Under the pieces are notes generated by a model that worked only from the letters and a program-made list of their open reading frames with translations, did no database searches and had not been told where the DNA came from. From assembly GCF_021391495.1 (NCBI RefSeq), contig NZ_CP090063.1, forward strand, positions 4,836,001 to 4,900,000: DNA of 64,000 nt, written 5' to 3'. Made by a program: the position numbers and the translations under genes. Below are positions 2,891 to 39,068 of this stretch, one piece after another. Position 1 is the first letter of the stretch. Each line of letters opens with the position of its first letter. Source of the stretch: Amycolatopsis acidiphila. Its GTDB lineage: Bacteria > Actinomycetota > Actinomycetes > Mycobacteriales > Pseudonocardiaceae.

Positions 2891-2960
2891 GCCAAGAGGG
2901 CTGCGCCGATCGTCCGGCGCGCGCGATCCTCGGTACTGTCGGTGCCCGGAGGCGATGGCT

Positions 2961-3737
2961 GTGAAGGACCAGGGGCTGGACCGCGACGGCGCGGCGCCGC
3001 TGTGGCGGCAGCTGCAGCAGTTGCTGCTCCACCGGATCGCGGACGGCGAGTTCGCGGCCCGGTTCCCCGGCGAGCTCGTGCTCGCCGAGGAGTACGGAGT
3101 GAGCAGGCAGACGGTTCGCCAGGCCCTGCGGCAGCTGCGCGCCGACGGCACCCTCGTGGCCGAGCGCGGCCGGCAGCCCCGGGTCGCTCCCCCGGCGGAG
3201 ATCACCCAGCCGGTCGGGGCGCTCTACAGCCTCTTCGCCGCCGTCGAGGCCGCCGGGCTGGCGCAGTACAGCGTCGTGCGCACCCTCGACGTGCGGGCCG
3301 ACGCGATCGTCGCCGACCGGCTGGCGCTGGAAGGGTCCACGCCGCTGGTGTACCTCGAGCGGCTACGCCTCGCCGGGGACGAGCCGCTGGCCCTGGACCG
3401 GGTCTGGTTGCCCGCCTCGGTCGCCCGGCCGCTGCTCGAGGCCGACTTCCGGCACACCAGCCTGTACGGCGAGCTGCACAAGCGCGCCGGCATCCGCCTC
3501 GACCGCGGCCACGAGCAGATCCGGGCCGTCATCCCGACCGTCGGCGAGCGGGCCCAGCTGCGCTGCGGCGAGCACGCCGCCGCCCTGTCCATCACCCGGC
3601 TCGGCACGGCGTCCGGCACCCCGGTCGAATGGCGCCACACCCTCGTGCGCGGCGACCGGTTCGCCCTCACCGCCGAGTTCTCCGGCCGGGCCGGCTACCG
3701 CCTCCTCGGCTCCCGGTCGGAGTTCGCCCCGGCCTGA
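2961..3737 (+). CDS. GntR family transcriptional regulator (HutC/UTRA type)
   Basis: A 258-residue regulator with an N-terminal winged helix-turn-helix (about residues 10-75, containing AEEYGVSRQTVRQALRQL) and a C-terminal UTRA effector domain that binds a small molecule in HutC-type regulators. The GTG at 2961 is preferred because GGAGG lies eight bases upstream; an in-frame ATG at 2955 sits almost on the ribosome site. It is divergent from yeiH across the 2851-2890 inverted repeat, so it probably represses yeiH and itself. The effector is unknown. Confidence 0.85.
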   Translation: MKDQGLDRDGAAPLWRQLQQLLLHRIADGEFAARFPGELVLAEEYGVSRQTVRQALRQLRADGTLVAERGRQPRVAPPAEITQPVGALYSLFAAVEAAGLAQYSVVRTLDVRADAIVADRLALEGSTPLVYLERLRLAGDEPLALDRVWLPASVARPLLEADFRHTSLYGELHKRAGIRLDRGHEQIRAVIPTVGERAQLRCGEHAAALSITRLGTASGTPVEWRHTLVRGDRFALTAEFSGRAGYRLLGSRSEFAPA

Positions 3738-7305: not shown

Positions 7306-8007
7306 TCAGCCGGCGCGAAGGTCGTAGAACTGTCTGATGTGGACGGTGACGGTGTCGGCGGCACGGGCGGCGTCACCGGCCTCGACCGAGTCCAGGATTC
7401 GGCGGTGTTCGGTGGCGAGCCTGCCGGCGGTCCGGCGCCAGTGCGCCGACCGGTCGTACCCGGCCCGCATCTCGCTCTGCAGCACGTCGCCGAGCGTGCT
7501 GAGCAGCAAGGCGGCGAGCTCGTTGTGCCCGGCGCGGGCGAGCAGGGTGTGGAACCGGCAGTCGAGCTCGCCGAACCGCGCGTAGCCGATCGCGGGGTCC
7601 GCCATCTCCCGGACCACGACGTGCAGCGGTGCCAGCTCGTTCGGCGTCGCGCACGCGGCCGCGCGAGCCGCGGCGGCGCTTTCGAGGCCGATCCTGATGG
7701 ACATCAGCTCCGCGCGCTCGAAGCCGGACACCGCCATGTGCAGCCGGAGCAGCCTGCCGACGAGCGGGGAAGGCGGCGGCGCCACGACGTGGCGGCCACC
7801 GGGACCCCGCTCGAGGACGCGCATCGTCTCGAGGACGCCGAGGGCGTGGCGGACGCTGTTCGTACCGGCCCGGAGGGTGGCGGCGAGCTCGCGTTCGGAC
7901 GGCAGCCGGTTGCCGGCGTGGAGCCGTTCCCGGAGCATCCATTCCTGGATGTCGGCCACGACCTGCCCGGGCGCCCTCAGGTACCGCACGTTGTCCGGCT
8001 CATCCAT
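7306..8007 (-). CDS. FadR/GntR family transcriptional regulator (first copy)
   Basis: A 233-residue GntR regulator of the FadR (FCD) subfamily. The winged helix (about residues 12-75) contains LPSERELAATLRAGTNSVRHAL, and an all-helical FCD ligand domain follows. The ATG at 8007 (MDEPDN) has GGGGAGG upstream; an earlier in-frame start would read through the promoter. The gene lies directly behind the CoA-hydrolase-like gene but has its own promoter with a FadR-type operator (TGGTTGGACCA). It flanks the mutase module and may regulate the divergent promoter at 9.15 kb together with, or in competition with, the second FadR-type regulator at 16.0 kb. Confidence 0.85.
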   Translation of the reverse strand: MDEPDNVRYLRAPGQVVADIQEWMLRERLHAGNRLPSERELAATLRAGTNSVRHALGVLETMRVLERGPGGRHVVAPPPSPLVGRLLRLHMAVSGFERAELMSIRIGLESAAAARAAACATPNELAPLHVVVREMADPAIGYARFGELDCRFHTLLARAGHNELAALLLSTLGDVLQSEMRAGYDRSAHWRRTAGRLATEHRRILDSVEAGDAARAADTVTVHIRQFYDLRAG

Positions 8008-8044: not shown

Positions 8045-8073
8045 AGCCTAATCGCTACGTGGTTGGACCACAA
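8045..8073 (-). promoter_or_regulatory. Promoter of the first FadR-type regulator with TGGT-N3-ACCA operator
   Basis: Read on the minus strand, TTGTGG (8073-8068), a 17-base spacer and TAGGCT (8050-8045) form a good promoter 38 bases before the ATG. The operator-like TGGTTGGACCA (8060-8070) overlaps the -35 and spacer. TGGT-N3-ACCA is the general FadR-subfamily operator pattern, so autoregulation is likely. Confidence 0.6.
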
Positions 8074-8083
8074 TGAGGCCTGG

Positions 8084-9115
8084 TCACGGAAGCACCAGGT
8101 CGTCCTCCAGCGGGGCGAAGAAGCTGTCGACGCAGGCGGGCGTCACGGCGGCGAGCTCGGCCGGGCGCCACGCCGGCCTGCGGTCCTTGTCGATGATCGC
8201 CGCGCGGATTCCCTCGGCCAGGTCCGGATGCGCGAGGAAGCGGCTGCAGAGCCGGTAGTCCTGGCGCAGGCACTCCTCGATGCCCGTCATCGAACGGGCC
8301 GCCCGGATGGCCCGCAACGTCACCTTGACCGCCGTCGGCGCCGCGGCGACGATCTTGCGCGCCGCGTCGGCCGCCGCCGCTTCGGGCCGGGCAGCGAGGC
8401 GGCGCAGGATCTCCTCGACCGTGCCGGCTCCGCCGTAGCACGCGTCGATCCACGCCCGATGTCCCGGCAGCACAGGAGGTTCGGGCGCCCGCGCGTGCTT
8501 CTCGACCGTGCCGCCGTCCGCGAGGTGGGCGATCAGCCCGGGTACTTCCGACGACCGGGCGAAGTGGTCGGCGAGCCCGCAGTACAGCGCGTCGGCCGCG
8601 GTCAGCCGGTCACCGGTCAGCGCGAGGTGCGTGCCGGTCTCCCCCGGTGCGCGCGCGAGCAGCAGCGTGCCGCCGACGTCCGGGGCGAGCCCGATCCCCA
8701 CCTCCGGCATCGCGAGCACGGCGCGCTCGGTGACGATCCGCAGGGCGGCGTGGCAGCCGATCCCCATCCCGCCGCCCATCGTGATCCCGTCCATGATCGC
8801 GACCACGGGTTTGGGATAGCGCGCGAGCCGTGCGTCGAGCCGGTACTCCGCACGCCAGAGCCGGCGCGCGAGCCCAGGATCGGTGCGGGCGGAGCGGTGC
8901 ACGACCGCGATGTCGCCGCCCGCGCAGAACGCGCGGTCCCCCGCCCCGTCCAGGACGACGGCCCGCACCCGCGAATCGTCCTCCCACGCGTCGAGCGCCC
9001 CGCGCATGCCTTGGATCATCTCGAGATCGAGCGCGTTGAGCGCCTCCGGACGGTCGAGCGTGATCCTGCCGAGCACCCCCTCGCGGCGGCAGCGGACGGT
9101 CCCACCTCGCACCAT
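8084..9115 (-). CDS. Enoyl-CoA hydratase/isomerase family protein, 3-hydroxyisobutyryl-CoA hydrolase-like
   Basis: A 343-residue crotonase-fold protein, longer than ordinary enoyl-CoA hydratases and matching 3-hydroxyisobutyryl-CoA hydrolases. The oxyanion-hole segment FCAGGDI is near residue 65, and MPEVGIGLAPDVGG carries the Glu and Asp used by HIBCH. The next stretch (LALTGDRLTAADALYCGLADH) is also hydrolase-like. The family hydrolyses 3-hydroxyisobutyryl-CoA in valine catabolism. The ATG at 9115 follows GGAAGGG. It is divergent from the B12-mutase operon and shares its promoter region, so here it may remove a branched hydroxyacyl-CoA formed around the mutase step, or salvage CoA. That role is inference. 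Confidence 0.75.
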   Translation of the reverse strand: MVRGGTVRCRREGVLGRITLDRPEALNALDLEMIQGMRGALDAWEDDSRVRAVVLDGAGDRAFCAGGDIAVVHRSARTDPGLARRLWRAEYRLDARLARYPKPVVAIMDGITMGGGMGIGCHAALRIVTERAVLAMPEVGIGLAPDVGGTLLLARAPGETGTHLALTGDRLTAADALYCGLADHFARSSEVPGLIAHLADGGTVEKHARAPEPPVLPGHRAWIDACYGGAGTVEEILRRLAARPEAAAADAARKIVAAAPTAVKVTLRAIRAARSMTGIEECLRQDYRLCSRFLAHPDLAEGIRAAIIDKDRRPAWRPAELAAVTPACVDSFFAPLEDDLVLP

Positions 9116-9153
9116 GACGCCCTTCCGTTCGACCACGAACTCGAGCTTAGGCC

Positions 9154-9189
9154 TTGCTCTCCCGTGCGACCAGACCTATGGTCTGACCA
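9154..9189 (+). promoter_or_regulatory. Promoter and operator of the hcm operon
   Basis: TTGCTC (9154-9159), a 17-base spacer and TATGGT (9177-9182) form the promoter. Two overlapping palindromes cover the -10: CAGACCTATGGTCTG (9171-9185) and TGGTCTGACCA (9179-9189). The second is the classic FadR-subfamily operator and is the exact reverse complement of the site at 15791-15801. On the other strand TGGTCG-N17-TAAGCT can drive the divergent hydrolase-like gene. A repressor here would block both directions. Confidence 0.7.
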
Positions 9190-9220
9190 CATGGCTGTCG
9201 TACCAGATCGCGGAGCTGAG

Positions 9221-9640
9221 ATGGACACGAACGAGGAGCCGGCCCGGGTGATGCTGGCCAAGATCGGCCTCGACGGGCACGACCGCGGCGTGAAGGTGGT
9301 CGCCAGGACGCTGCGGGACGCGGGGATGGAGGTGATCTACACCGGCCTGCACCGCAGCCCGGAGCAGGTGCTGGAGGCGGCCGTCCAGGAGGACGTGGAC
9401 GTGCTCGGCGTCAGCCTGCTCTCGGGCGCCCACCTGCCGATCTTCACGCGGATCTTCCAGCTGCTCGACGCGATGGGAGAACGGCCGCGGTTCGCGGTCG
9501 TGGCCGGCGGGGTGATGCCCGACGAGGACGTGGACGAGCTCAAGAAGATGGGCGTCGCCGAGGTGCTCGGCCAGGACACGACACCGGACACGATCGTCGG
9601 GCGGATCCGCGAGCTGACCGCGCTGGCGCGGGAGGCGTGA
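9221..9640 (+). CDS. hcmB: B12-binding small subunit of an acyl-CoA mutase (2-hydroxyisobutyryl-CoA mutase type)
   Basis: A 139-residue cobalamin-binding domain. It has the base-off/His-on motif DGHDRG (Asp18, His20, Gly23), the SLLSG element (Ser65-Leu-Leu) and the GG pair at 96-97, which together hold the lower ligand tail of B12. It forms the small subunit of a heteromeric acyl-CoA mutase with the large subunit at 11992. The ATG at 9221 has GGAG five bases upstream; the ATG at 9191 lies on the operator and near the transcription start. It is the first gene of the operon and overlaps the ligase gene by one base. Assignment to the hydroxyisobutyryl type comes from the large subunit's active-site residues and operon content. 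Confidence 0.87.
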   Translation: MDTNEEPARVMLAKIGLDGHDRGVKVVARTLRDAGMEVIYTGLHRSPEQVLEAAVQEDVDVLGVSLLSGAHLPIFTRIFQLLDAMGERPRFAVVAGGVMPDEDVDELKKMGVAEVLGQDTTPDTIVGRIRELTALAREA

Positions 9641-11043
9641 TGGAGCAGTGGAGCTGGCCGCCGCGCTACGACGAGTCCTACCGGCCCGAGCCCGGGCAGC
9701 GGTTCTGGTTCCCGCGGCGGGAGACCATGCCCGCGCAGGAACGCGATGAGGCGATCCTCGCCCGGATCCGCGAGGTGATGGCCTACGCGTGGGAGAACGC
9801 GCCGTTCTACCGCCGCAAGTGGGATGAGGCCGGAATCCACCCGTCCTCGGTCAAGAGCCTGTCGGACTTCGAGAAGGTCCCGGTGGTGCGCAAGGAGGAG
9901 CTGCGCGCCGACCAGGCCGCGCACGAGCCGTTCGGCAGCTACCTGTCGGTGCCCGTGTCGGAGGTCAAGCACGTCAACGGCACGTCCGGCACGACCGGCA
10001 GGCCCACCGCGTTCGGCATCAGCGAGCGCGACTGGCGCAGCGTGGCGAACGCACACGCCCGGGTCATGTGGGCGATGGGCATCCGGCAGGACGACACCGT
10101 GCTGGTCGCGTCCCCGCTGAGCCTGTACTGGGGTTCCTGGGGTGCCTACATCGGCGCGGAACGCCTCGGCGCCCGGGTCTTCCCCTTCGGCGCCGGAACA
10201 CCCGGCCAGACCGCGCGCACGGTGCACTGGATGCGGCAGATGGGGGTGACCGTGTTCTACGGGACGCCTTCCTACGCACTGCACCTGGCCGAGGTCGCCG
10301 CGGACGAGGGCGTCGACCCGGCCTCGCTCGGGCTGCGCAAGCTGTTCTTCTCCGGCGAACCGGGCGCGAGCGTGCCCGCCATCCGCTCGAGGATCGCCGG
10401 GGCGTTCGGCGCGCAGGTCTACGACTCGGGGAGCATGGCCGAGGTCAGCCCGTGGATGCACCTGGGCGCGGCGAGCGACGAACCCGGCGTGCTGTGCTGG
10501 CAGGACCTGGTCTACACCGAGGTCTGCGACCCGGTCCACCACCACCGGGTCGAGTACGGCGCCGAGGGGACCCCCGTCTACACGACGCTCGAGCGCACGA
10601 GCCAGCCGATGATCCGGTTGCTGTCCAACGACCTCACGCGCTGGGAGGCACCCTCGGCGGCGCGCGGCCGCAGCTACCCGTTCCTGCCGAACGGGATCTA
10701 CGGCCGGATCGACGACATGTTCACCGTCCGCGGCGAGAACGTCTACCCGAGCGCGATCGACGACGTCGTGATGGCGGCCGACGGCTACGGCGGCGAGCAC
10801 CGGATCGTGATCAGCCGTGAGTCCACGATGGACAGTCTCGCGGTGCAGGTCGAGTACAAGGACGTCCCGGAGCCCTCGCTGCAGGCCTGGGCAGGCGGCA
10901 TCGCCGAGAAGCTGCGGAAGGTGCTCGGCGTCGGCGCGAAGGTGGTGCCGGTGGCGCACCAGACCTTCGACCGCACCGAGTTCAAGGCACGGCGGGTCGT
11001 CGACGACCGCGACCTGTTGCGACGGCTCGGAAGCGCGTCATGA
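9640..11043 (+). CDS. hcl: PaaK-type acyl-CoA ligase, probable 2-hydroxyisobutyrate-CoA ligase
   Basis: A 467-residue AMP-forming CoA ligase of the phenylacetate-CoA ligase (PaaK) group. NGTSGTTGRP, the phosphate-binding loop, lies at about residues 113-122; the YDSGSMAEVSPW and GRIDDMFTVRGENVYP signatures precede the hinge and the C-terminal lid. Known 2-hydroxyisobutyrate-CoA ligases belong to this group and are encoded with the mutase, so it probably makes the mutase substrate from the free acid, ATP and CoA. It starts at ATG 9640 inside the stop of hcmB and overlaps meaH by four bases. Phenylacetate is unlikely because no paa genes are present. Confidence 0.8.
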   Translation: MEQWSWPPRYDESYRPEPGQRFWFPRRETMPAQERDEAILARIREVMAYAWENAPFYRRKWDEAGIHPSSVKSLSDFEKVPVVRKEELRADQAAHEPFGSYLSVPVSEVKHVNGTSGTTGRPTAFGISERDWRSVANAHARVMWAMGIRQDDTVLVASPLSLYWGSWGAYIGAERLGARVFPFGAGTPGQTARTVHWMRQMGVTVFYGTPSYALHLAEVAADEGVDPASLGLRKLFFSGEPGASVPAIRSRIAGAFGAQVYDSGSMAEVSPWMHLGAASDEPGVLCWQDLVYTEVCDPVHHHRVEYGAEGTPVYTTLERTSQPMIRLLSNDLTRWEAPSAARGRSYPFLPNGIYGRIDDMFTVRGENVYPSAIDDVVMAADGYGGEHRIVISRESTMDSLAVQVEYKDVPEPSLQAWAGGIAEKLRKVLGVGAKVVPVAHQTFDRTEFKARRVVDDRDLLRRLGSAS

Positions 11044-11991: not shown

Positions 11992-13698
<1,707 letters not shown>

Positions 13699-13738: not shown

Positions 13739-15391
13739 ATGTACCACCAGGTTTCCGCGCCGCTGTGGGGCAGTCTGGGCTGGTCCGCCCTGATCGCCGC
13801 ACTCCCCCTGCTCGTGCTGTTCGTGCTGCTGGGGGTGTTCCGGATCCGCGCCTGGCTCGCGTCGCTCGTCGGCCTCGCGCTCTCGCTCGTGGTCGCCGTC
13901 GCGGCGTACCGGATGCCGGCGGGAGCGGCGTTCGACTCCGCACTCGAAGGCGCGGCCTTCGGGCTGTTCCCGGCACTGTGGATCGTGGTCAACGCGATCT
14001 GGATCTACCAGCTCACCCGCCGCTCGGGCCATTTCGACGTACTGCGCCGGAGTTTCGCCCGGATCAGCGACGACCAGCGCGTGCAGGGCATCATCATCGC
14101 CTTCTCCTTCGGCGCGCTCCTCGAGGCGCTGGCCGGGTTCGGCGCGCCCGTGGCCATCTGCTCGGTGATGCTCGTCGCGGTCGGGCTCAAGCCCATCAAG
14201 GCCGCCACCATCGCGCTGATCGCGAACACCGCGCCGGTGGCCTACGGCGCGGTCGCGCTGCCGGTCATCACCCTGGCGAAGGTCACCGGCCTGCCGCTGC
14301 CCGACCTGGCGGCGATGACCGGACGGCAGGTGCCGGTGCTCGCGCTGATCGTGCCGCTCGTCCTCGTCGTCGTGCTGGACGGCAGGCGGGGGCTGCGCCA
14401 GGCGTGGCCCGCCGCCCTGGTGTGCGGGGCGAGCTTCGCCGTCGCGCAGTACCTGATGGCCAACTTCGGTGTGGTCCAGCTGACCGACATCGTGGCGTCG
14501 CTGGTGTCCGCGACCGCGGTCCTGCTCCTGCTCCGGGTGTGGAAACCTCGCCCCGCCGAGCCGGTTCCCGCGGCGGACGTCGCCCCGCCACCTTCGGGCG
14601 GCGGGGGCGCGACCACCGCCGTGCGCACGGCCGCCGCGGCGACCGACACCCGGATCGAGGTGGTCCGGGCCTTCGCGCCCTACGTCGCGGTCATCGTGCT
14701 GTTCTCCCTTGCCGCGGTGCCCCCGGTCGCCGCGGCTCTCGCCCACACGACCAGCACGTTCGGCTGGCCGGGGCTGCACGTGGCGAACGCGAGCGGCAAG
14801 GCGGTGACCCTCGTGCAGTTCAAGTTCGACTGGCTGGCCGACAGCGGCACCGTGTTGTTCGTCGCCGGGCTGCTGACCATCCCGCTGCTCAAGCTCCGGG
14901 CCCGTGACGCGCTTCGCGCCTACGGCCACACGATCGTGCAGCTGCGCACGGCCGCGCTGACCGTGACGGCCGTGCTCGCGCTCGCCTACGTGATGAACAT
15001 GTCCGGCCAGACCGCGACCCTGGGCCTGTTCCTGGCCGGCGCGGGCGGGCTGTTCGCGCTGCTGTCCCCGCTGCTCGGCTGGTTCGGCACCGCGGTCACC
15101 GGGTCCGACACCTCGTCGAACTCGCTGTTCGGCGCCCTGCAGGTCGGCGCGGCGGGCGGGGCGGGCATCTCCCCGCTGCTGATGGCCGCGGCCAACACCA
15201 GCGGCGGCGTGCTGGGCAAGATGATCAGCCCGCAGAACCTCGCGATCGGGGCCAGTGCGGTCGGCCTCGCCGGGCGGGAAGGCCTGCTGTTCCGCCGCGT
15301 ACTGGCCGCCTCCGCGGTGTTCGTGCCCCTGATGTGCGTGCTGGTGTACCTGCAGTCCACCCCGATCCTGTCCTGGATGGTGCCGTCATGA
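13739..15391 (+). CDS. L-lactate permease family (LctP) transporter, probable 2-hydroxyisobutyrate uptake
   Basis: A 550-residue polytopic membrane protein of the LctP family with about 12-14 transmembrane segments. Family features are the GALLEALAGFGAPVAI element near residue 125 and the C-terminal GSDTSSNSLFGALQ and SGGVLGKMISPQNLAIG motifs. LctP proteins carry short 2-hydroxyacids such as lactate and glycolate. The mutase substrate acid is 2-methyllactate, so uptake of 2-hydroxyisobutyrate is a reasonable inference. An alanine/glycine-rich hydrophilic loop lies near residues 275-300. It starts 40 bases after hcmA and overlaps the next gene by four bases (ATGA). Confidence 0.85.
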   Translation: MYHQVSAPLWGSLGWSALIAALPLLVLFVLLGVFRIRAWLASLVGLALSLVVAVAAYRMPAGAAFDSALEGAAFGLFPALWIVVNAIWIYQLTRRSGHFDVLRRSFARISDDQRVQGIIIAFSFGALLEALAGFGAPVAICSVMLVAVGLKPIKAATIALIANTAPVAYGAVALPVITLAKVTGLPLPDLAAMTGRQVPVLALIVPLVLVVVLDGRRGLRQAWPAALVCGASFAVAQYLMANFGVVQLTDIVASLVSATAVLLLLRVWKPRPAEPVPAADVAPPPSGGGGATTAVRTAAAATDTRIEVVRAFAPYVAVIVLFSLAAVPPVAAALAHTTSTFGWPGLHVANASGKAVTLVQFKFDWLADSGTVLFVAGLLTIPLLKLRARDALRAYGHTIVQLRTAALTVTAVLALAYVMNMSGQTATLGLFLAGAGGLFALLSPLLGWFGTAVTGSDTSSNSLFGALQVGAAGGAGISPLLMAAANTSGGVLGKMISPQNLAIGASAVGLAGREGLLFRRVLAASAVFVPLMCVLVYLQSTPILSWMVPS

Positions 15392-15819
15392 TCCACGACC
15401 TTCCCGCCGTGGAGGAGGCCAACGCCGCCATCGGCGCCGCCGTCTCCACCACGTCACTGCCCGCCGGCCTCGAAGACCTGCTGACCGAGGTCCAGCACGA
15501 CCTGCTCGACCTCGCCGACGGACTGCGCGTCCCGCCGCCCGATCGCCTCCGGCGTGCGCTGCGCGACCTCGGCCCCGCGGACTTCCCGCGCGGGTTCGCG
15601 GTTCTCGGCGGGTTCAGCGACGGCGCGGGACTGCTCAAGCTGGCCAGGGCGATCACCCGCCGTGCCTGCCGGGCGGCCGAGGGCGAGCCGGCTCGCTACC
15701 TCGAACTGCTGGCCGAAGTGCTTCTCGTGGCCGCCTGGCGGGCCGAGGAACACGAACGCGAGCAGATCCCGCTGGGCAGCTGCTTCGATGTGGTCAGACC
15801 AACAGAGAGGTCGCATTGA
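15388..15819 (+). CDS. N-terminally truncated PduO-type corrinoid adenosyltransferase-like protein
   Basis: A 143-residue helical protein. Its parts line up in order with PduO/MMAB ATP:cob(I)alamin adenosyltransferases: VEEANAAIG (7-16) with VDELNAALG, LTEVQHDLLDLADGL (32-46) with the QxxLFDLG helix, FAVLGGFSDGAG (70-81) with FILPGG, and ARAITRRACRAAEGE (86-100) with the ARTxxRRAER helix. The N-terminal ATP-loop region (TKTGDxGxTSL) is missing, and RRAER has become RRACR. The ATG overlaps the permease stop, so no room exists for a longer start in this frame without entering the permease. It could be a cofactor-delivery or scaffold remnant. The similarity is my reading of motif order, not a search result. 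Confidence 0.6.
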   Translation: MIHDLPAVEEANAAIGAAVSTTSLPAGLEDLLTEVQHDLLDLADGLRVPPPDRLRRALRDLGPADFPRGFAVLGGFSDGAGLLKLARAITRRACRAAEGEPARYLELLAEVLLVAAWRAEEHEREQIPLGSCFDVVRPTERSH

Positions 15820-15845
15820 CAGCCCCCTGCCACTCTGATTACCTG
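15791..15845 (+). promoter_or_regulatory. Promoter and FadR-type operator ahead of the B12 riboswitch
   Basis: TGGTCAGACCA (15791-15801), the exact complement of the hcm operon operator, sits 14 bases upstream of TTGACA (15816-15821). An 18-base spacer and TACCTG (15840-15845) follow. The -35 overlaps the stop of the preceding gene. This would start a transcript that begins with the cobalamin riboswitch and runs into the FadR-type gene at 16025, so the regulator probably controls itself. Confidence 0.5.
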
Positions 15846-15955
15846 GAGTGACAGTTCGTGGAGAAGAGGAATTCCGGTGAGATTCCGGGCCGGTCGCGCC
15901 ACTGTGATCGGACGGCGCCCTCGCGGCGTGTTCCGTAGGCAGACCCTCCCTCCGC
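15846..15955 (+). promoter_or_regulatory. Cobalamin (B12) riboswitch
   Basis: The conserved core of the cobalamin riboswitch is visible from 15865 to 15910: GAGGAATTCCGGTGAGATTC is followed by CGGGCCGGTCGCGCCACTGT and GATCGG. CCGG-TGAGATT-CCGG is the expected hairpin and CGCCACTGT is the near-invariant loop segment. A 3' GTAGGCAGACC (15937-15947) matches the conserved closing element. The outer P1 stem is weak by eye, so the exact ends are uncertain. The downstream expression platform (to 16024) contains a CGGGC/GCCCG hairpin and could mask the ribosome site GAGG at 16014-16017. The only downstream gene on this strand is the FadR-type regulator, which is unusual for this riboswitch class. Confidence 0.82.
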
Positions 15956-16024
15956 GCTTCATCCTTTACCGGGCCGCACGAGCCCGAGAGGGGCCGGAAT
16001 GATGCCGAGTACCGAGGACCGACG

Positions 16025-16756
16025 GTGACCAGCGAAGCCTCGTGGGAGCCGGTGCGCCGCGTACGCACCCACGAGCAGGTGTTCGCGCAGATCCAGCAGA
16101 AGATCCTCGACGGGAGCCTGCGTGCCGGGCAGCGGCTGCCCAGTGAACGCGAGCTGGTCAGCGCGCTCGGGGTCAGCCGCACGAGCGTTCGCGAGGCGCT
16201 GCGCGCCCTGGAGGCGATGGGCATCATCGAGGCCCGCACCGGCTCCGGGCAGGACGCCGGTTCCGTGGTCACCGACAAGTCGACCCCGGCGATGACGAAC
16301 CTGCTGCGGCTGCACATCGCGCTGGCGAAGATCAGCCTCGCCGACCTCGTCGAGACCCGCGTCCAGCTCGAACGCAACGCCGCCAGTGGCGCGGCGTCGG
16401 CCCGCACCCCCGAGGACGTGCGCCGCCTCGCCGACCTCGTCGACGCGATGCGCTCGACCGGCTCCGACTACCCCGAGTTCAACGCGCTGGACACCGAGTT
16501 CCACGTCGCCATCGCCCGGATCTCGGGCAACGCGCTCGCCGCCGACCTGATGCAGGCGCTGCGCGGAGCGGTGGAGCACGAGATGGCGGCCGCGTTCGCC
16601 CGCTTCGACGACTGGCGCGCGGTGGCGAACTCCCTCGTCGACGAGCACGAAGCCATCCTGCGCGCGATCGAAAAGGGCGACTCGGACGCGGCGGCGGATC
16701 AGGTGTCCGAGCACATCACGCGCTTCTACCAGGACCGCATCCTCAACGCGGACTGA
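16025..16756 (+). CDS. FadR/GntR family transcriptional regulator (second copy), B12-riboswitch controlled
   Basis: A 243-residue FadR-subfamily regulator. The winged helix (about residues 12-80) contains LPSERELVSALGVSRTSVREALRAL, and the FCD domain (about 95-235) has the usual conserved His-containing helices (EFHVAIARISGN, DEHEAIL). The GTG at 16025 has GAGG upstream. It lies downstream of a cobalamin riboswitch and of an operator identical to that of the hcm operon. The simplest reading is a repressor of the B12-dependent mutase genes. Its own synthesis is stopped when B12 is present, so the mutase operon opens only with cofactor. It overlaps the convergent FGE gene by 14 bases. Confidence 0.85.
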   Translation: MTSEASWEPVRRVRTHEQVFAQIQQKILDGSLRAGQRLPSERELVSALGVSRTSVREALRALEAMGIIEARTGSGQDAGSVVTDKSTPAMTNLLRLHIALAKISLADLVETRVQLERNAASGAASARTPEDVRRLADLVDAMRSTGSDYPEFNALDTEFHVAIARISGNALAADLMQALRGAVEHEMAAAFARFDDWRAVANSLVDEHEAILRAIEKGDSDAAADQVSEHITRFYQDRILNAD

Positions 16757-37857: not shown

Positions 37858-39068
37858 GCGTGCCGGCGTCCGTCGTGATCGCCGGGGCGTCGGCGGCGGG
37901 ACTGTCCACCGCCGAGACACTGCGAAGGCAGGGATTCGACGGGCGGATCACGCTGATCGGCGAGGAGGTGCACCCGCCCTACGACCGGCCGCCACTGTCC
38001 AAGCAGATCCTCTCCGGCACATGGCCGGACGAGCGGGTGTGGCTGCGCGACGAGGCGGCGCTCGCCGGTCTCGCGCTCGACCTCCGGCTCGGTGCCCGCG
38101 CGGAGGCGCTCGACACCGGCGCCAAGGTCGTCCGGCTGTCGGACGGATCCCTGGTGTCCTACGACGAGCTGGTCATCGCGACCGGCGTCCGGCCCCGCCG
38201 GCTGCCGGGAACGGCGGACGTGGCAGGCGTGCACGTGCTGCGGACCCTCACCGACGCCACCACCTTGCGCGCCGCGCTGGCAGGCTCACCCCGGCTCGTC
38301 ATCGTGGGCGCCGGGTTCCTCGGCGCCGAGGTGGCCTCGGTCGCCCGCCAGGCCGGTGCCCAGGTGACGCTGGTGTCCGACATCGAAGCGCCACTGTCCG
38401 ATGTGCTCGGTCCGCAGCTGGGCGAGCTGCTCGTCGGCGTGCACCGGGACCACGGCGTGGAGGTGGTCACCGGGGCGCGGGTGGAGGAGGTCCTCGTCTC
38501 GGGCGGACGTGCCCACGGCGTGCGGCTCGCCGGTGGCCACACCATCGAGGCGGACGCCGTGCTGGTGTCCATCGGCTCGGTCCCGAACGTCGAATGGCTG
38601 GCCGGCAGCGGCGTCGAGGTCGGCAACGGTGTCCTCTGCGACCAGTACAGCCAGGCCGGGCCCGGTGTGTGGGCGGCGGGCGACGTCGCCAGCTGGCACC
38701 ACCCGGGTCTGGGCGAGCGCATCCGGATCGAGCACCGGACCAACGCCGCCGAGCAGGGCATGGCGGTGGCGCGCAACATCCTGGCCGGCGAGGACAGGTC
38801 GCCGTTCGCCCCGGTGCCCTACATCTGGTCGGACCAGTACGACCTCAGGATCCAGATCCACGGCCTGCCTCGCGGCGCCGACGCCTTCGCCGTCACCGAG
38901 GGCAGTCTCGCCGACCGCAAGCTGGTCGCCCTCTACGGCAAGGACGCTCAGGTCCGCGCCGCGGTCGGGATCAACATGGTCCGTCCGGCACGGGCGGCAC
39001 GGGCGCTCGTCGCCACACCGACGGCATGGGAGACGGCAACCGCCGTCCAGGAAGGAGTCACACCATGA
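37854..39068 (+). CDS. NAD(P)H:ferredoxin reductase (FAD-dependent, putidaredoxin-reductase type)
   Basis: A 404-residue oxygenase-coupled reductase. The FAD fold VVIAGASAAGLSTAETL is at the N-terminus, IATGVRPRRLPG near 105 and the NADH-binding VIVGAGFLGAEVASVAR near 145. The later VWAAGDVASWHHP near 275 is the second FAD motif. The reductase fold and C-terminal domain are typical of BphA4/putidaredoxin reductase. It transfers electrons from NAD(P)H to the adjacent ferredoxin. It overlaps both neighbours by four bases, so the three-component system and two extra genes are translated together. It may also serve the reductase-less Rieske operon. Confidence 0.9.
   Translation: MSVPASVVIAGASAAGLSTAETLRRQGFDGRITLIGEEVHPPYDRPPLSKQILSGTWPDERVWLRDEAALAGLALDLRLGARAEALDTGAKVVRLSDGSLVSYDELVIATGVRPRRLPGTADVAGVHVLRTLTDATTLRAALAGSPRLVIVGAGFLGAEVASVARQAGAQVTLVSDIEAPLSDVLGPQLGELLVGVHRDHGVEVVTGARVEEVLVSGGRAHGVRLAGGHTIEADAVLVSIGSVPNVEWLAGSGVEVGNGVLCDQYSQAGPGVWAAGDVASWHHPGLGERIRIEHRTNAAEQGMAVARNILAGEDRSPFAPVPYIWSDQYDLRIQIHGLPRGADAFAVTEGSLADRKLVALYGKDAQVRAAVGINMVRPARAARALVATPTAWETATAVQEGVTP

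Follow-up and report, generated by a model that had tools for sequence, protein, structure and literature searches.

In the leader of Mycobacterium tuberculosis ppe2, cobalamin (B12) binding is an OFF signal that acts first on an upstream open reading frame (uORF; uPPE2), PPE2 itself being produced mainly by termination-reinitiation (PMC11260477). The Listeria OFF B12 riboswitches AspocR and Rli55 have the effect of switching a B12-dependent catabolic pathway on, for which both the substrate and the cofactor are needed (PMC8079631), and in Bacillus thuringiensis a guanine riboswitch turns down nupR, the gene of a GntR-family regulator of nucleoside transport (PMC9430930); a GntR gene is usually present near the hcl-hcmAB clusters of Aquincola and others (PMC7176365). 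Here we describe a 64,000-nucleotide stretch of the Amycolatopsis acidiphila genome (the window), part of one 8.18 Mb contig, in which a B12 riboswitch and a short uORF precede the gene of a GntR/FCD regulator, termed FCD1, adjoining the operon of a predicted 2-hydroxyisobutyryl-CoA mutase. From its sequence the locus is read as a cofactor-gated derepression circuit, a B12 inverter in which a rise in B12 would lower the predicted FCD1 repressor and raise the mutase operon, with a probability of about 0.7.

The arrangement resembles that described for ppe2 in having a Shine-Dalgarno sequence next to P13 that serves a short uORF, a stop-start overlap and a GGAA motif, all of which the 11 intact leaders show here without exception. 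It differs in its targets, which in M. tuberculosis are a PPE protein and cob genes (PMC11260477) and here are represented by a transcriptional regulator with predicted coupling. The OFF-to-ON logic is that of Listeria AspocR and Rli55, which act by antisense RNA on pocR or by sequestration of EutV (PMC8079631), whereas a predicted repressor protein would perform the conversion here. Like nupR, FCD1 is a GntR-family regulator gene preceded by a leader riboswitch of the OFF type; the abstract of PMC9430930 gives a guanine ligand, transcription termination and a HutC-type regulator for nupR and does not mention a uORF. The hcl-hcmAB clusters likewise bring ligase, mutase, chaperone and GntR gene together, but the word riboswitch is absent from the main text of PMC7176365. 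No description of a B12 riboswitch on such a GntR repressor gene of a mutase operon appears in the titles and abstract openings covered by the literature search, most subscription papers lying outside its reach. The combination of a B12 riboswitch and an overlapping uORF on a probable repressor gene appears to be a novel assembly of known kinds of parts. If the reading is true, it represents a compact natural converter of an OFF riboswitch into an ON response that uses one repressor gene and is conserved across several genera, it extends the riboswitch-uORF coupling of M. tuberculosis to a regulator gene, and it points to B12, and hence cobalt, as a checkpoint for using acids of the 2-hydroxyisobutyrate type.

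The riboswitch aptamer and its distribution

The elements of the FCD1 leader and the gene it precedes are located as follows.

15841 to 15997, forward strand: AdoCbl (adenosylcobalamin) riboswitch (RF01482), 39.2 bits, E = 1.1e-5, full model 1-149
15962 to 15992, forward strand: P13 expression platform, a CGGGC/GCCCG stem with a 7-nucleotide loop and an outer pairing of UCCUUU (15962-15967) with AGAGGG (15987-15992), the Shine-Dalgarno region
15999 to 16028, forward strand: uORF encoding MMPSTEDRR and a stop, its TGA overlapping the GTG start of FCD1 (GTGA)
16025 to 16756, forward strand: FCD1, GntR/FCD regulator (PF00392 and PF07729), predicted repressor

The aptamer was located in a permissive scan of positions 15600-16200 (601 bases), where the RF01482 match is significant below the Rfam gathering score of 50 bits, and genome-wide it is one of three RF01482 matches (E = 3.4e-5). 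The P3 strands (15857-15863 and 15950-15956), the GGAA segment (15868-15871), the B12 box near 15938-15945, the L5 loop CGCG and the L13 loop CGC are directly visible in the sequence. The window riboswitch is judged to be real and well conserved, with AdoCbl very probably its ligand. At gathering thresholds no Rfam family is matched anywhere in the window; taking this silence, shared by L022, L023, L024, L026 and L027, for absence of an aptamer was dropped after the permissive scans and a survey of 61 genomes. The cobalamin riboswitch that the earlier note had proposed before a regulator gene is thus recovered, and the same arrangement is present in 11 of the 15 loci compared below. The covariance search that the note suggested succeeds through RF01482 but not through RF00174 itself, which gives 19.3 bits (E = 0.031) against a cut-off of 31.5. 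The next gene on the strand is FCD1, as the note had it, but a short uORF overlapping the FCD1 start adjoins the riboswitch. Elsewhere in the same genome (G000) B12 riboswitch matches lie before a nickel/cobalt transporter (L001) and a BtuF-like binding protein (L003), both assigned by eye, and before a magnesium-chelatase-type gene (L114, Pfam).

Matches to FCD1 occur in 13 of 390 family genomes (E<=1e-75) and 2 of 396 genomes drawn from the phylum (E<=1e-68), the own genome included in each count, and matches to the mutase (E<=1e-230) in 16 and 2 of the same sets, respectively. Fifteen loci in which an FCD1 orthologue adjoins the mutase operon were compared (the window, L025, L050-L052, L022-L024, L053, L054, L027, L028, L055, L026 and L090), the named carriers being Prauserella rugosa, P. 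alba, P. salsuginis, Amycolatopsis acididurans, A. acidicola, Pseudonocardia eucalypti and an actinomycete metagenome-assembled genome; FCD1 is not seen at mutase loci L091 and L092 within the stretches fetched. The aptamer is intact in 11 loci, decayed in one and absent from three. RF01482 scores of the intact leaders are 51.6 bits (L008, the same locus as L028), 44.8 (L007, the same as L053), 41.8 (L027), 40.5 (L050), 39.2 (the window), 37.6 (L051 and L052), 37.3 (L023), 36.8 (L024), 35.7 (L022) and 32.6 (L025), the last being the weakest match (E = 0.032 in 52 kb) and missed in a scan at E<=0.01. Permissive scans give no RF01482 match in L026, L054 or L055; by eye the aptamer is decayed in L054 and absent from L055, L026 and the short leader of L090. 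FCD matches in Firmicutes and Rhodobacteraceae (L029-L039, 31-34% identity) were set aside as other regulators, and the lower-scoring FCD loci L009-L012, L019 and L020 (42-52% identity) show no Rfam match to a cobalamin riboswitch. L012 has a sub-threshold match at 2899-3487 to the Saccharopolyspora sRNA family Sernc389 (33.1 against 74 bits).

Among the intact leaders there is no variation in the GGAA, in the GGTCGCGCCACTGTGATCG segment or in most of the B12 box, and the conserved core, B12 box, GGAA junction and pairable L5-L13 loops are found in 11 of 11, with three bases able to pair between L5 CGCG and L13 CGC (by eye). P3, the P6 extension and P13 vary in sequence with pairing largely kept. 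In P3, 52 of 56 cells are paired over 8 distinct rows, a value that shuffling of the 3' strands attains in 20 of 10000 trials, and sliding the strands by 1-2 positions leaves only 12-22 of 40-48 cells paired. Compensatory change is seen at P3 pair 3, which shows four pair types, and the end pairs of P13 vary. Taken alone, the P6 extension is clearly more stable than shuffles in some rows only (0 to 69 of 500 shuffles as stable).

The absences and the decay, 4 of 15 FCD1 loci together, indicate that the aptamer is not essential to the system. In L055 (G448) the leader (12677-12797) keeps the palindrome, a promoter-like stretch, the Shine-Dalgarno sequence and the uORF without an aptamer, and the protein tree places L055 as sister to the riboswitch-bearing L028 (99/98), inside the riboswitch-bearing part. 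This position points to a loss of the aptamer in L055 and, with the retained remainder of the leader, suggests that the aptamer behaves as a separable module. Natural loss in some loci makes versions with and without the riboswitch comparable.

A survey of related genomes served as control for score and gene context. RF01482 is matched at E<=0.01 in 54 of 61 genomes and above the gathering score in 15 of 61, so that sub-threshold scores are usual in these relatives; the gathering score of 50 misses most matches in this group. Genes downstream of 30 RF01482 loci, one per genome and including the own genome's chelatase locus, were named by Pfam, the choice between two overlapping open reading frames being made by eye in 5 loci. 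They comprise CbtA/CbtB (7), CobN (3), magnesium-chelatase-type (7), CbiM (3) and periplasmic binding proteins (6), so that a cobalt-transport, chelatase or periplasmic-binding gene is named in 26 loci and nothing in 4; a transcription factor is found by Pfam at 0 of the 30. The FCD1 leaders of G000, G008, G018 and G032 are among the 61-genome matches but outside these 30 control loci.

The expression platform and the overlapping uORF

Directly after P13, a uORF of 8-18 codons whose TGA overlaps the GTG or ATG start of FCD1 is present in 11 of 11 intact leaders, and its purine-rich Shine-Dalgarno sequence adjoins the P13 stem in all of them. This placing of P13 against the Shine-Dalgarno sequence of a uORF that overlaps the start of a regulator gene is newly seen here. 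The overlap extends to leaders lacking an intact aptamer, as RTGA in L054 and as TGATG in L055, and at some loci more than one in-frame uORF start is possible. The uORF peptides differ between loci, which makes translational coupling, rather than a peptide product, the likely point of the uORF. In 9 of the 11 intact leaders the Shine-Dalgarno region has a potential pairing partner of the UCCU type on the 5' side of P13. No terminator-like site lies on the forward strand at 15700-16100; transcription termination was therefore dropped as the platform mechanism and a translational platform is favored. The platform is predicted to be of the translational OFF type, as in the M. tuberculosis ppe2 leader, with FCD1 expression dependent on translation of the uORF.

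Palindromic sites, the two regulators and the proposed circuit

The sites, the promoters and a second FCD regulator, termed G2, are placed as follows.

9154 to 9189, forward strand: predicted mutase operon promoter TTGCTC-N17-TATGGT, in a conserved register; the hcmB ATG is at 9191
9179 to 9189, forward strand: exact palindrome TGGTCTGACCA, operator candidate reaching into the -10 of the mutase operon promoter
15791 to 15801, forward strand: exact palindrome TGGTCAGACCA, upstream of the FCD1 promoter and 14 bp before TTGACA
15816 to 15844, forward strand: predicted FCD1 promoter TTGACA-N17-TTACCT, read by eye
8060 to 8070, reverse strand: operator-like TGGTCCAACCA over the predicted -35 (TTGTGG) of G2
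7306 to 8007, reverse strand: G2, the second FCD protein, whose recognition helix is degenerate

The sites and their registers are seen directly in the comparison. GGTCNGACC or a one-base variant occupies the mutase operon -10 (TATGGT) in the same register in 13 of 14 loci and, with L090 added, in 14 of 15; by eye a TTG-type -35 lies ~17-18 bp upstream of this -10 across the loci. A copy or one-base variant also precedes FCD1 in 14 of 15 loci, L026 having only the poorer GGTACGACC, and in 8 of 8 Amycolatopsis/Prauserella-type loci it is found just upstream of TTGACA. A site of this type stands before G2 in each of the 13 loci with a G2 gene, overlapping the TTGTGG -35 in 10 of 13 by eye. Exact copies of the motif number 42 in 246 kb of 14 related, non-independent loci (the window left out) against a simulated mean of 13.45 (range 8-20, 20 first-order runs). 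The own genome contains 16 copies of TGGTCNGACCA and 15 of a reversed control pattern, which is chance level, and the window at up to two mismatches holds 22 matches, fewer than the 33.5 in shuffles. Because these two counts are at chance, it is the conserved position and not the motif count that gives the predicted sites their significance. A third exact palindrome in the window, at 38826, lies by eye in coding sequence and was taken as chance. The predicted FCD1 and mutase promoters are proposed on the strength of their conservation. The predicted mutase -10 ends ~8 bases before the ATG at 9191 (9177-9193), and the operon transcript may for this reason be leaderless.

FCD1 combines a GntR winged helix (PF00392, 78.5 bits) with an FCD domain (PF07729, 85.3 bits), and its nearest solved relative is 2di3 (134.8 bits), which we take to be the Corynebacterium glutamicum GntR protein LldR and which has the same GntR+FCD architecture. 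The NCBIfam LldR equivalog cut-off is not reached (111.2 against 311 bits), and FCD1 is judged LldR-like in domain make-up only; to our knowledge no riboswitch is known for LldR. G2 is 39% identical to FCD1. Mean pairwise identity of the recognition region over 13 loci is 0.93 for FCD1 and 0.47 for G2, and that of the FCD domain 0.63 and 0.46. The Arg of the SRTSVRE helix is lost from G2 in 9 of 13 loci (the Amycolatopsis/Prauserella types, the window among them, and G032) and kept in L054, L027, L028 and L055. Against the Pfam GntR cut-off 8 of 9 G2 proteins pass. The D/H/H/H residues, presumably the metal site of the FCD domain, are kept in 14 of 14 FCD1 and 13 of 13 G2 sequences examined. 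With a recognition helix near-invariant in FCD1 and degenerate in G2, FCD1 appears the better candidate to read the conserved palindrome, and G2 may sense an effector and serve as partner or antirepressor.

In the proposed circuit, binding of B12 to the aptamer would leave the uORF Shine-Dalgarno sequence masked by P13 and the L5-L13 kissing loop, and with the uORF stop overlapping the FCD1 start there would be less reinitiation on FCD1 and the repressor would fall. FCD1 would otherwise bind GGTCNGACC at the mutase operon -10 and block the operon, so that under B12 sufficiency low FCD1 would open the B12-dependent operon. A 2-hydroxy acid, sensed at the D/H/H/H site, is probably a second input to FCD1, which would make an AND gate of substrate and cofactor; the FCD domain and the presence of a permease make it likely that the substrate is sensed by FCD1 or G2. 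A more elaborate, tentative and rather doubtful version has the riboswitch and uORF meter FCD1 while G2, its DNA-reading helix lost and its effector domain kept, acts as substrate-sensing partner or dominant-negative antirepressor. If true, this three-part inverter would set repressor dose (cofactor) and repressor quality (substrate) on separate subunits, a kind unseen before. The earlier note had called FCD1 FadR-type, which is right in the broad sense of PF00392 plus FCD PF07729 with 2di3 nearest in the PDB, and the paired sites it had reported at 9179-9189 and 15791-15801 are exact. Its suggestion of a B12 inverter gains from the OFF-type platform, the operator in the -10 (14 of 15 loci) and the conserved DNA-reading helix, but is complicated by G2, which also has an operator-like site. 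That conversion of OFF to ON through a protein is rarely described, as it stated, may hold for a B12 riboswitch on a repressor gene; AspocR and Rli55 follow the same logic through RNA, and nupR already places a riboswitch on a GntR gene.

A number of observations weigh against this circuit. The window aptamer does not reach the gathering score (39.2 against 50 bits), its RF00174 match is weak, 10 of the 11 intact leaders, that of the window included, score below the RF01482 gathering value, which only L008 exceeds, and the aptamer is missing in three FCD1 loci and decayed in a fourth. At the platform, L027 and L028 lack the outer anti-Shine-Dalgarno pairing, the window Shine-Dalgarno GAGAGGGG is weaker than AGGAGG, and isolated platforms fold no better than shuffles (z of 0.71, 0.54, 0.27 and -0.21). 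Consensus promoter scans report neither the FCD1 nor the mutase promoter. The site of FCD1 itself lies ~55 bp upstream of the predicted start and at that distance fits activation as well as repression, and G2 could be the regulator of the operon.

The low scores, together with decay in L054 and loss in L055, are what a decayed relic without ligand binding would show, but core segments that do not vary among the 11 intact leaders and stems (P3, the P6 extension and P13) that change with pairing largely kept make this highly improbable. It is also improbable that FCD1 is an activator or mainly self-acting, the riboswitch only limiting the regulator level, so that mutase expression would fall with B12. 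Both activators and repressors are known among FCD regulators and the FCD1 site stands upstream of its own -35 at an activator-like distance, but the site reaching into the mutase -10 in 14 of 15 loci and that overlapping the G2 -35 in 10 of 13 (by eye) are in blocking positions, and lowering a B12-dependent enzyme with B12 would be perverse. G2 as the regulator of the mutase operon, with the riboswitch-controlled FCD1 serving other genes, draws on the G2-type gene that 13 of 15 loci have at their mutase end (the contig of L026 ends ~1 kb upstream of hcmB), its operator-like site in 13 of 13, the recognition Arg kept in four loci and the GntR gene that PMC7176365 notes as usual upstream of such clusters. 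The recognition region of G2, however, evolves fast (0.47) and has lost the Arg in 9 of 13 loci while the sites remain near identical, the L022 protein falls under the GntR Pfam cut-off (22.4 against 27; 9 G2 proteins run), and L090 has FCD1 and the sites with no separate G2 match in the stretch fetched; we give this assignment little credence.

A further possibility, unlikely though less remote than these, is that most transcripts in which the riboswitch is read are read-through products of the mutase operon, and that it acts as a feedback brake on repressor synthesis and not as the primary B12 sensor. FCD1 does follow the operon on the same strand with no forward-strand terminator-like site at 15700-16100, but a palindrome and promoter-like stretch stand ahead of the aptamer, either past the last operon gene or overlapping its 3' end, and the placing is the same in L027 and L028, where no adenosyltransferase-like match is found. 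The circuit in which B12 lowers a repressor of the mutase operon is preferred over these readings.

The mutase operon and neighboring genes

The operon and the genes flanking it are arranged as follows.

8084 to 9136, reverse strand: protein of the 3-hydroxyisobutyryl-CoA hydrolase family, encoded divergently to the mutase operon (NF004127, 402.4 bits against a cut-off of 274)
9191 to 9640, forward strand: hcmB, small B12-binding subunit (PF02310 B12-binding, 94.6 bits)
9640 to 11043, forward strand: PaaK-like acyl-CoA ligase, probable 2-hydroxyisobutyrate-CoA ligase (profile matches; cluster composition like that in PMC7176365)
11040 to 11978, forward strand: MeaB-type GTPase chaperone (TIGR00750, 316.6 bits against a cut-off of 240.75)
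11992 to 13698, forward strand: hcmA, large subunit of 2-hydroxyisobutyryl-CoA mutase (best PDB match 4r3u, 799.3 bits)
13739 to 15391, forward strand: LctP-family permease (TIGR00795, 442.1 bits against a cut-off of 341.15)
15388 to 15819, forward strand: short adenosyltransferase-like protein (PF01923, 30 bits, profile positions 31-138 of 171)

The large subunit is closest to HcmA, the methylmalonyl-CoA mutases in the PDB giving 439.9 bits or less against 799.3 for 4r3u, and the B12-binding subunit is encoded separately by hcmB. An RQIAGFG stretch is common to hcmA and 4r3u, and we take its Ile to be telling for 2-hydroxyisobutyryl-CoA mutase; the predicted substrate of hcmA/hcmB is probably 2-hydroxyisobutyryl-CoA. 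No GDxG loop is found in the encoded adenosyltransferase-like protein and the PF01923 alignment is partial, so that it may be no working adenosyltransferase. On the 3' side of FCD1 an FGE-sulfatase gene lies on the opposite strand. In A. acidicola (L028, 10001-11724) and in L054 (12236-14082) a 3-hydroxyisobutyryl-CoA hydrolase gene instead follows FCD1 on the same strand; in L008/L028 the two genes seem to overlap stop to start, and the riboswitch there might lower the hydrolase as well.

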